Shown piece after piece: positions 18,522 to 21,341 of a stretch of DNA of 64,000 bases; the stretch's first letter is position 1; each line of letters opens with the position of its first letter. Below the pieces are notes generated by a model. It saw only the letters and a program-made list of their open reading frames with translations, ran no database searches and was not told the origin of the DNA. Origin of the DNA: Pedobacter cryophilus (GTDB lineage Bacteria > Bacteroidota > Bacteroidia > Sphingobacteriales > Sphingobacteriaceae). The position numbers and the translations under genes are program-made. Location: the NCBI RefSeq assembly GCF_005116455.1, contig NZ_SWBP01000001.1, forward strand, positions 372,001-436,000, given 5' to 3'.

Positions 18522-19304
18522 ATGAGTCTGGTAAAAGCAAAAAAACATTTAGGGCAGCATTTTTTAACCGATAAAAACATTGCAGAAAAGATTGTAAACA
18601 GCCTGATTCATCATAATGCTTATGATAAAGTATTGGAAGTAGGCCCCGGAATGGGTGTTTTGTCTGATTTTCTATTACAAAAAAAAGAATACGAAACTTT
18701 TTTAATTGATATTGATAAGGAGTCGTTTTTATTCCTCCAAAAAAAATATCCCGATTTAGGAGATAAATTATTAAATGCAGATTTTCTTCATCTTGATTTT
18801 AAAAGTGTTTTTCCATCGGCTTTTGCCATTATTGGAAACTTTCCTTACAACATTAGTTCTCAAATTTTATTTAAAATTTTAGATAACCGAAACCAAGTAC
18901 CCGAAGTAGTAGGCATGTTTCAGAAAGAAGTGGCCGAGCGTTGTACCGCAAAACCGGGCACCAAAGAGTATGGCATTTTAAGTGTTTTTCTGCAAGCATA
19001 TTTTAAGTGTGAGTATTTATTTACGGTGAAAGCTGGCGTTTTTAATCCACCACCAAAGGTGCTTTCTGCAGTAATTAGGTTGAGCAGAAACGAAGCTTTA
19101 CATTTAAATTGTGATGAAAAATTATTTTGGCAGGTGGTAAAAGCAGGTTTTAATCAGCGAAGAAAAACTTTGAGTAACGCTTTATCTGGTATTATCCCAA
19201 AAGAAAAACAAGACGACCAAAATGTTTGGACTTTAAGAGCCGAGCGTTTAAGTGTAAATGATTTTGTAGAGTTGACTCAAAATATTAGTTTAAAATTAAA
19301 ATGA
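18522..19304 (+). CDS. rsmA: 16S rRNA (adenine1518/1519-N6)-dimethyltransferase
   Basis: Dimethylates two adjacent adenines in helix 45 of 16S rRNA. The 260-residue protein starts KAKKHLGQHFLTDKNI, has the SAM loop EVGPGMGVLSDFL (39-51) and the catalytic NFPY motif (106-109). Its TGA overlaps the ATG of a truncated dehydrogenase copy (ATGA), showing that rsmA and the dehydrogenase were originally overlapping neighbours before the nuclease unit was inserted. Confidence 0.96.
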   Translation: MSLVKAKKHLGQHFLTDKNIAEKIVNSLIHHNAYDKVLEVGPGMGVLSDFLLQKKEYETFLIDIDKESFLFLQKKYPDLGDKLLNADFLHLDFKSVFPSAFAIIGNFPYNISSQILFKILDNRNQVPEVVGMFQKEVAERCTAKPGTKEYGILSVFLQAYFKCEYLFTVKAGVFNPPPKVLSAVIRLSRNEALHLNCDEKLFWQVVKAGFNQRRKTLSNALSGIIPKEKQDDQNVWTLRAERLSVNDFVELTQNISLKLK

Positions 19305-19381
19305 GCAATAAAATATTAATAGTTGATGATTTGCATCCAGCTTTTAAGTTGGCTGCAGAAGCGATTATTCAAATTCATTAA
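19301..19381 (+). pseudogene. Truncated 5' copy of the 2-hydroxyacid dehydrogenase gene
   Basis: The first 61 nt match 20412-20472 at 60 of 61 positions (only T19354 versus C20465, a silent Ala change). After the match the frame runs into foreign sequence and stops after 26 codons. The upstream context, overlapping the rsmA stop, is the original one, so this is the severed natural start of the dehydrogenase gene. Confidence 0.9.
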
Positions 19382-19384
19382 AAA

Positions 19385-20422
19385 ATGAAGCAAAATAATT
19401 TAGAGCAAAAGGAAAACTTAGTAAGCGAAATTAAAACGCTTATAGAAGATAGTAGGCAACAGGTTTCTATTGCAGTTAACTCTACCATGACTATGCTTTA
19501 TTGGCAAATTGGCAAAAAAATTAATACTGAAATTTTAAAAGATACTAGAGCAGAATATGGAAAACAAATTGTCGCTACACTGTGGCGACAATTGGAATTA
19601 GATTATGGGAATTCATTCTCTGAAAAAAATCTTCGAAGAATGATTCAGTTTGCAACAGTTTTTACAAACCATGAAATTGCCGTTTCATTGATACGGCAAT
19701 TAAGTTGGTCTCACATAAAAATCTTAATTCCTATTGATGAAGAGTTGAAGAGAATGTTTTACATAGAAATGTGTAAAATAGAAAAGTGGAGCACAAGAAC
19801 TTTGCAAGATAAAATCAACTCCATGCTTTATGAGCGTACTGCTATCAGTAAAAGGCCAGAAGAAACCATAAAAAGAGAGTTAGAACGCCTATCCAATAAA
19901 AATCAAATCACGCCAGATTTAGTTTTTAGAGACCCTTACTTTTTAGATTTCCTAGGTCTAAAAGACACTTATTCAGAAAATGATTTAGAGTTGGCAATTT
20001 TAGCAGAGTTACAAAGGTTTATTTCTGAGCTAGGCTCTGATTTTGCTTTTGTTGCTCGACAAAAAAGGTTAATGATTGATAATAGAGATTATTATATCGA
20101 TTTACTTTTCTATCACCGAAGATTAAAATCTTTAGTAGCTATTGATTTAAAAATTGGTGAGTTTGATGCTTCCCATAAAGGTGAAATGGAGTTATATTTA
20201 GCTTATTTAGAGAAATATGAAACTATTGAAGGAGAAAATCCTCCCATTGGATTAATCTTATGTGCGGGTAAAAATCCAGAACATGTTGAGTTATTACAAC
20301 TCCATAAAAGCAATATCAAAGTAGCAGATTATTTCACCATTTTACCATCAAAAGAAATTTTACTTAATAGATTAAACAGAGCAATTGAAATAGCTCAAAA
20401 CAAAAGAATAGATGAGCAATAA
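19385..20422 (+). CDS. YhcG/DUF1016 PDDEXK nuclease domain protein
   Basis: The 345-residue protein has an N-terminal helical DUF1016 domain (LYWQIGKKI at about 38, EKNLRRMIQFA, LSWSHIKILI) and a C-terminal PDDEXK nuclease core: Glu208 in ELQRFI, Asp239 in YYIDLLFYHR and the DLK pair (Asp254, Lys256) in VAIDLKIGEF. All putative metal ligands are intact. The family occurs sporadically across bacteria, often near restriction-modification genes, with function not established. Here it stands alone, its ATG just past the junction and its last 11 nt inside the duplicated dehydrogenase start, a sign of insertion. Nuclease activity is inferred from fold. Confidence 0.9.
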   Translation: MKQNNLEQKENLVSEIKTLIEDSRQQVSIAVNSTMTMLYWQIGKKINTEILKDTRAEYGKQIVATLWRQLELDYGNSFSEKNLRRMIQFATVFTNHEIAVSLIRQLSWSHIKILIPIDEELKRMFYIEMCKIEKWSTRTLQDKINSMLYERTAISKRPEETIKRELERLSNKNQITPDLVFRDPYFLDFLGLKDTYSENDLELAILAELQRFISELGSDFAFVARQKRLMIDNRDYYIDLLFYHRRLKSLVAIDLKIGEFDASHKGEMELYLAYLEKYETIEGENPPIGLILCAGKNPEHVELLQLHKSNIKVADYFTILPSKEILLNRLNRAIEIAQNKRIDEQ

Positions 20423-21341
20423 AATATTAATAGTTGATGATTTGCATCCAGCTTTTAAGTTGGCCGCAGAAGATTTAGGTTTTGAGGTAGATGATTTACC
20501 GCTTATCAAAAAAGAAGAAGTTCTAAAAATTCTTCCAAACTATATTGGTTTAGCCATTAGAACCAAATTTAGGGTAGATAAAGAAGTGATAGACGCTGCG
20601 CCAAACCTAAAATTTGTTGCTAGGGCTGGTGCCGGAATGGATAATATTGAAGTAGCTTACGCCGATGAAAAAAATATCCAACTCATTAATGCGCCCGAAG
20701 GAAATTCTGATGCCGTTGGCGAGCATGCTACAGGTTTATTGCTTTCGCTGATGAATAATTTTAGAAAAGCAGATATAGAAATTAGAAAACAAATTTGGGA
20801 CCGAGAAGGTAACCGCGGTTACGAGCTAAAAGGCAAAACCGTAGCTATTATAGGTTACGGACACATGGGACAAAGTTTTGCTAAAAAATTAAAAGGTTTT
20901 GAGGTAAATGTAATTGCCTATGATAAGTATAAAACAGGTTTTTCTGATGAATTTGCCAATGAGGTAAGTATGGAAGAAGTGGTAAAACACGCCGATGTTT
21001 TGAGCTTGCATATTCCACTTACCAAAGAAACCAAGCAAATGGTAAATGATGAATATCTTTTACATTTTAGACGCCCCATATTTTTCTTAAACACCGCCAG
21101 AGGCGAAATAGTGAATACATCATCTGTTTTAAAAGGCATTAAAAACGGTAAAATATTAGGTGCCGGTTTAGACGTTTTAGAAACAGAGAAATTCCCAAAT
21201 TTAGCTAAGGAAGCATTTTATGAAGATTTAATTACCGAAGGAAAACTCATATTAACCCCACACATTGGTGGCTGGACTTTTGATTCATATCGGAAAATAT
21301 CAGAGGTATTAGCGCTCAAGCTTAAAAATTTGGAATTATAA
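20412..21341 (+). CDS. NAD-dependent D-2-hydroxyacid dehydrogenase
   Basis: A 309-residue enzyme of the phosphoglycerate/2-hydroxyacid dehydrogenase family. The Rossmann motif is GYGHMG (148-153), the substrate-side loop RAGAGMDNIE (71-80), the catalytic Arg in NTARGEIV and His in TPHIGGWT. It is shorter than classical SerA and lacks an ACT domain; whether the substrate is 3-phosphoglycerate is not decidable. The start codon lies inside the second copy of the 61-bp repeat, 11 nt upstream of the DUF1016 stop. Expression now presumably depends on read-through from the insert. Confidence 0.88.
   Translation: MSNKILIVDDLHPAFKLAAEDLGFEVDDLPLIKKEEVLKILPNYIGLAIRTKFRVDKEVIDAAPNLKFVARAGAGMDNIEVAYADEKNIQLINAPEGNSDAVGEHATGLLLSLMNNFRKADIEIRKQIWDREGNRGYELKGKTVAIIGYGHMGQSFAKKLKGFEVNVIAYDKYKTGFSDEFANEVSMEEVVKHADVLSLHIPLTKETKQMVNDEYLLHFRRPIFFLNTARGEIVNTSSVLKGIKNGKILGAGLDVLETEKFPNLAKEAFYEDLITEGKLILTPHIGGWTFDSYRKISEVLALKLKNLEL

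Follow-up and report, generated by a model that had tools for sequence, protein, structure and literature searches.

A DUF1016 nuclease gene inserted between direct repeats of its neighbour's start in Pedobacter cryophilus, and the long flanking repeats that recur around its family

How does a solitary nuclease gene come to stand between two copies of the start of the gene that follows it, with every gene at the site left complete? This question is raised by one locus of the window, as we call the whole 64-kb stretch of Pedobacter cryophilus DNA that was analysed, where the following features are found:

18522 to 19304, forward strand: rsmA, for the 16S rRNA adenine dimethyltransferase, an intact open reading frame (Pfam RrnaAD, 7.3e-47)
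19301 to 19361, forward strand: left copy of a 61-bp repeat, a dead dehydrogenase start of 26 codons (repeat search and sequence)
19362 to 20411, forward strand: the 1,050-bp insert between the repeats, absent from the congeneric genomes G014, G005 and G007
19385 to 20422, forward strand: gene for a DUF1016/YhcG predicted PD-(D/E)XK nuclease of 345 aa (open reading frame, Pfam and PADLOC)
20412 to 20472, forward strand: right copy of the 61-bp repeat, its first base being that of the ATG of the dehydrogenase gene (repeat search)
20412 to 21341, forward strand: D-isomer-specific 2-hydroxyacid dehydrogenase gene, intact, 309 aa (open reading frame; Pfam 2-Hacid_dh)

The two repeat copies lie 1,111 nt apart from start to start and match at 60 of 61 nt, the sole mismatch (GCT/GCC) being silent, and in this the repeat search and the open reading frames confirmed what an earlier note on this DNA had described. 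The rsmA stop codon sits within the left copy, in an ATGA overlap, and this copy reads 26 codons, MSNKILIVDDLHPAFKLAAEAIIQIH, up to a stop codon; the right copy opens the intact enzyme and also provides the stop at which the nuclease gene ends, again as the note had it. The nuclease gene is itself intact. Owing to the duplication of the 61 bp of the dehydrogenase 5' end, all three genes are complete, the nuclease gene as well as rsmA and the dehydrogenase gene. The span given in the note, 19301-20472, does cover the insert and both repeats, but it stops with the right repeat copy, short of position 21341, where the dehydrogenase gene ends. The GC content of the insert is 31% vs 34% for the window. 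A chance or dispersed repeat was considered and ruled out, given that the 64-kb window has no direct repeat of 18 nt or more at a spacing of 200-6,000 nt besides the 61-bp pair, and that among 247 sliding intervals of 1,050 bp only one, the insert itself, has flanking repeats. By the list of open reading frames, the only sizeable one in the insert is that of DUF1016, with neither a recombinase nor a methylase beside it, so that the nuclease gene is solitary and not part of a restriction-modification system. No transposase was found at the insert either, and a duplication of 61 bp is not short: as had been claimed, it exceeds what a transposon leaves at its target.

The DUF1016 gene of the window is an insertion at the rsmA/dehydrogenase junction, because empty alleles exist in congeners: in G014, G005 and G007 (L004, L008 and L010), whose dehydrogenase proteins are 79-81% identical to that of the window, rsmA and the dehydrogenase gene meet with the same ATGA overlap and nothing between them. 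The uninserted alleles that the earlier note proposed to look for are thus present, and with both neighbour genes intact its view of the insertion as costless also stands. The same junction holds other genes in further congeners, namely a two-gene pair which by eye is HepT/MNT-like in G008, G010, G012 and G013 (L005, L006, L007 and L009), and a putative lipoprotein gene in G003; no flanking repeats were found at these inserts. A quite different history would have the gene start duplicated in tandem first and the nuclease gene inserted later, or would make the whole arrangement a rearrangement without mobility. This is possible in principle, the comparison being one of other species of the same genus, with no very close relative carrying an intermediate form among them. 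However, a duplicated dehydrogenase start without the nuclease gene, the intermediate that was sought, occurs in no congener examined, and the arrangement recurs around unrelated targets, as described below, and we regard this history as very improbable.

The inserted gene belongs to a well-defined family. Pfam gives DUF1016_N at 1.7e-45 and YhcG_C at 1.2e-47, PADLOC matches the protein to PDC-S02 at 6e-127, and in the family alignment D239 and K256 are invariant, with D/E two residues before the lysine (D-L255-K256 in the window). This D...(D/E)LK motif is the one described for YhcG/DUF1016 (PMC1189080), a family (COG4804, PF06250/PF17761) of predicted PD-(D/E)XK nucleases, some of them on mobile elements (PMC1189080, PMC4316617), with which the window protein shares both domains and the conserved motif. 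In the literature searched we found no report of gene-end duplication on insertion by DUF1016/YhcG. The closest relatives of the window gene (78% identical in amino acids) are in G015 and G016 at another locus, between genes that by eye are DUF1599-like and DoxX-like, and the moving unit appears to be essentially the open reading frame, because nucleotide similarity between the insert and these nearest relatives spans little more than that.

Is such a repeat peculiar to the window, or does it accompany the family? We surveyed 304 different DUF1016 genes, each with 300 bp or more of sequence on either side, counting direct repeats that bracket the gene at a distance of up to 500 bp (a score of at least 25 with match +1 and mismatch -2, low complexity removed); the score threshold was fixed after inspection of a first set, and was used unchanged in the replicate and the matched controls. 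Long direct repeats bracket 31 of the 304 genes vs 11 of 1,264 intervals of the same length in the same loci (p=1e-14), in a survey that is mostly of Bacteroidota, includes many draft assemblies and favoured high-scoring matches in its choice of loci. The rate differs between groups, with 8 of 196 in the samples of the window's own family and order, and 19 of 82 in the phylum and class samples. In a matched class sample, where the controls were Fic, a widespread accessory family that is not a nuclease, and phosphoglycerate kinase (PGK), repeats were found at 9 of 27 DUF1016 genes, 1 of 28 Fic genes and 0 of 29 PGK genes (p=1e-4 for DUF1016 against both controls), the single Fic match being REP-like; among loci of this sample not seen before, 6 of 15 DUF1016 genes were bracketed. 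A first survey in the own family had given no enrichment (12/222 vs 9/264), a result that is superseded by the wider, matched samples. The expectation that other DUF1016 genes would also have flanking repeats is therefore borne out in part, at a rate well above the controls, but about 90% of the surveyed genes have no detectable repeat. Moreover, the number of repeats derived from genes is smaller than 31, because the count includes some dispersed or REP-like ones (e.g., L341, L142 and L066), and the generality of the pattern is limited by 14 plasmid-borne DUF1016 genes, around which none was found. E. coli yhcG was tried and rejected as a polymorphic insertion with duplication: its presence is variable, but the K-12 locus has no repeat. 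Nor is the pattern unique to DUF1016, since in the AAA/DUF4143 ATPase family 5 of 29 genes across the phylum have flanking repeats; in L399:729-3341, for instance, a DUF4143-family gene stands at the start of a gene for an FAD-dependent oxidoreductase, of which 92 bp of the 5' end are duplicated (80/92). We take the DUF4143 domain to belong, like DUF1016, to the PD-(D/E)XK clan.

Many of the repeats are the ends of intact, co-directional neighbour genes, with the other boundary of the repeat falling inside the gene; where the 5' end is repeated DUF1016 lies upstream of the target gene, and where the 3' end is repeated it lies downstream. The cases are the following:

L281: 5' end of citF, 384 bp from the ATG
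L067: 5' end of a GNAT gene, the repeat beginning within 1 bp of the ATG
L343: 5' end of a metallophosphatase gene
L110: 3' end of thiL (named from sequence)
L337: 3' end of the glutamate dehydrogenase gene (gdh)
L302: 3' end of the methylmalonyl-CoA mutase gene
L287: 3' end of a gene for a cytochrome-domain protein
L416: 3' end of a peptidyl-prolyl isomerase (PPIase) gene
L329: 3' end of an Eco57I-type methylase gene
L421 and L444: 3' ends of apparent type I restriction-modification genes (named from sequence only)
L132: a tRNA-like segment

In L067:4950-6041 the left copy even encodes the N-terminus of the DUF1016 protein, which begins with about 16 residues taken over from the start of the adjacent GNAT acetyltransferase. 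Four species in the genus of G153 have DUF1016 next after thiL; in two further species of that genus (L366 and L371) a short DUF1016 start is left 3' of thiL, apparently the remnant of a lost copy. The targets thus differ across the family, and one repeat is common to two unrelated DUF1016 genes (L292).

The explanation that we favour, with some confidence but no more than that, is that a single-gene unit entered the junction by recombination through a copy of the gene end that it carried, thereby duplicating the 61 bp. The mobile unit would be the open reading frame of the DUF1016 nuclease and almost nothing else, landing at the rsmA/dehydrogenase junction; it would arrive joined to a copy of the end of its target gene, from a genome where it already adjoined that gene, and would enter by recombination, through a single crossover or a one-sided event, between the carried copy and the resident gene end. 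The product would be direct repeats with homology ending near a start or stop codon, and an intact target gene. The trigger may be a break in the unoccupied target DNA, for which the DUF1016 nuclease itself is possibly responsible. For the window we infer this recombination route, and any part of the nuclease in it.

One rival, at the level of the repeat itself, is a fresh target duplication, in which opposite-strand nicks 61 bp apart, or a break with a long overhang, would have captured a DUF1016 fragment, fill-in then duplicating the target, by analogy with what might be supposed for restriction-modification genes. The near identity of the copies in the window and in L148 (170/171) speaks for it, as does the variable length of the repeats (37-384 bp), and for the window pair break repair that duplicated the target afresh is as good an account as a carried copy, the two being indistinguishable there because the copies have only one silent difference. 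It is in the older cases that they part. Among the differences between repeat copies in the pairs checked, 92 of 142 are at third codon positions and 16 at second positions, and there are no stop codons in the copies, whereas a fresh duplication followed by decay of the dead copy would give, by our own rough estimate, a fraction of 0.46 at third positions; judged from these substitutions, the copies of the older cases diverge as orthologues do. In L287, with congeners as outgroup, third positions account for 12 of the 14 changes assigned to the fragment copy (p=8e-5), and the sites at which one or the other copy is derived follow each other along the repeat in the order expected from one crossover (p=0.013). 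In L281, where no such order was seen, the left fragment resembles most relatives slightly more than the functional right copy does, a relation opposite to simple decay, although the polarisation is weak, with relatives 15-20% diverged. Further evidence comes from L292:1-2698, where two tandem DUF1016 genes, only 32% identical to each other, are accompanied by three copies of a repeat of about 190 bp, one on each outer side and one in the middle; the copies are 97% and 93% identical, and the repeat takes in the region of the DUF1016 start codons. It is unlikely that the same boundaries were used again by chance, and a unit carrying its own target copy would produce this arrangement. Fresh duplication is also at odds with repeats that begin at the ATG, as in the window and L281, and within 1 bp of it in L067, and we hold it to be doubtful. 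Units with a carried target, as the earlier note had supposed, are favoured in these older cases because of the orthologue-like divergence and the shared repeat of L292, but not for the window on its own; later allele replacement could be another source of orthologue-like copies.

Homing must be weighed as well. Here the DUF1016 nuclease would recognise and cut the empty rsmA/dehydrogenase junction, and the gene would be copied in when the break is repaired from an occupied allele, the resident copy escaping cleavage since its junction is split or altered. The intact PD-(D/E)XK motif is compatible with this, the excess of duplications around DUF1016 and not around Fic would be expected from it, and the repeat that two unrelated DUF1016 genes have in common in L292 hints that a site was used more than once. 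Nevertheless, the targets vary widely (dehydrogenase, citF, thiL, gdh, tRNA and others), with no common sequence or cut-site consensus evident at the insertion junctions on inspection by eye, and the AAA/DUF4143 family shows duplications too, although DUF4143 presumably shares the nuclease clan. Homing as the whole explanation therefore seems unlikely to us.

A further possibility comes from the company that the family keeps. In at least 12 of the surveyed Bacteroidota chromosomal loci a tyrosine integrase gene immediately precedes DUF1016, commonly overlapping it by 4 bp, and the same order is found in the plasmids L505, L506 and L507, with an integrase nearby in L517. Integrase- or resolvase-DUF1016 pairs were noted altogether in L505, L506, L507, L517, L509, L248, L238, L231, L247, L224 and L268, that is, in plasmids of Salmonella, Pseudomonas, Citrobacter, Bacteroides and Sulfurimonas and in Bacteroidota chromosomes. 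In the window's own genome, the second DUF1016 gene (L278:1143-3439, contig G000:C9) comes directly after a gene with a weak match to tyrosine integrases (E about 2e-4), which it meets at one base, and close by on the opposite strand is a nucleotidyltransferase-like gene. This pairing ties the DUF1016 family to mobile DNA, and it also qualifies the earlier statement that no recombinase is present, which is true of the insert but not of the family, whose members, this second gene included, often follow a tyrosine integrase. The insert could accordingly be imagined as a derivative of such a unit that lacks the integrase and was brought to the gene end by a tyrosine recombinase from another locus, with the gene end restored in the way known from integrative elements, and the frequency of the pairs, down to the one in this very genome, lends the idea some weight. 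However, no flanking repeats were found near the integrase-DUF1016 units examined, so that the duplications are not explained by them; the repeat-flanked DUF1016 genes mostly have no integrase match, and the repeats reach 384 bp, a great length for a recombinase core. We consider an integrase acting in trans improbable.

Returning to the carried gene end, its wider reach may be put as a conjecture, to which we give only limited credence: DUF1016 genes, and perhaps DUF4143 genes, would be minimal, recombinase-free elements of about 1 kb that carry a host gene end as the homology through which they land, cut the uninterrupted end and so provoke recombination, and restore the gene as they enter. 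What the survey does suggest, through the recurrence at the ends of many different genes, is a largely undescribed movement of lone nuclease genes. How nuclease and restriction genes jump alone without a transposase has been an open question since long target duplications by restriction-modification genes were noticed in 2000, and the DUF1016 scars offer sequence evidence on how such duplications form, in a large and common family of solitary nucleases where up to a third of the genes in some groups carry the scar and matched controls do not. The window provides a small testable system, with one 1-kb gene and one empty site, and the flanking gene-end repeat is a simple genomic signature to be sought around other defence genes.

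Three kinds of known systems resemble this arrangement. Free-standing homing endonucleases share with it a single nuclease gene beside a conserved gene and a costless insertion, but target duplication is not typical of them, whereas here the target is duplicated and both cleavage and site specificity of DUF1016 are putative. Integrative elements such as SXT at the prfC 5' end restore their target gene, and as with DUF1016 the end of the target gene is duplicated and one copy completes the gene; unlike them, the DUF1016 unit has no integrase, is of 1 kb and uses many different targets. The closest likeness is with the insertion of restriction-modification genes with long target duplication (Nobusato, Uchiyama, Ohashi and Kobayashi 2000, Gene 259:99), which, as outlined in later papers that cite it (PMC1643837, PMC3031569), shares with our locus a gene absent from a related genome, a nuclease gene without transposase, and long direct repeats of the target sequence of variable length. 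On the same accounts, the window differs in having a solitary PD-(D/E)XK nuclease in a 1-kb unit with no methylase, and the DUF1016 repeats differ in being gene ends near a coding boundary, with copies that are often orthologue-like. In anatomy, the window thus agrees with the long target duplications of restriction-modification genes, as these sources outline them, in everything except the modification gene.
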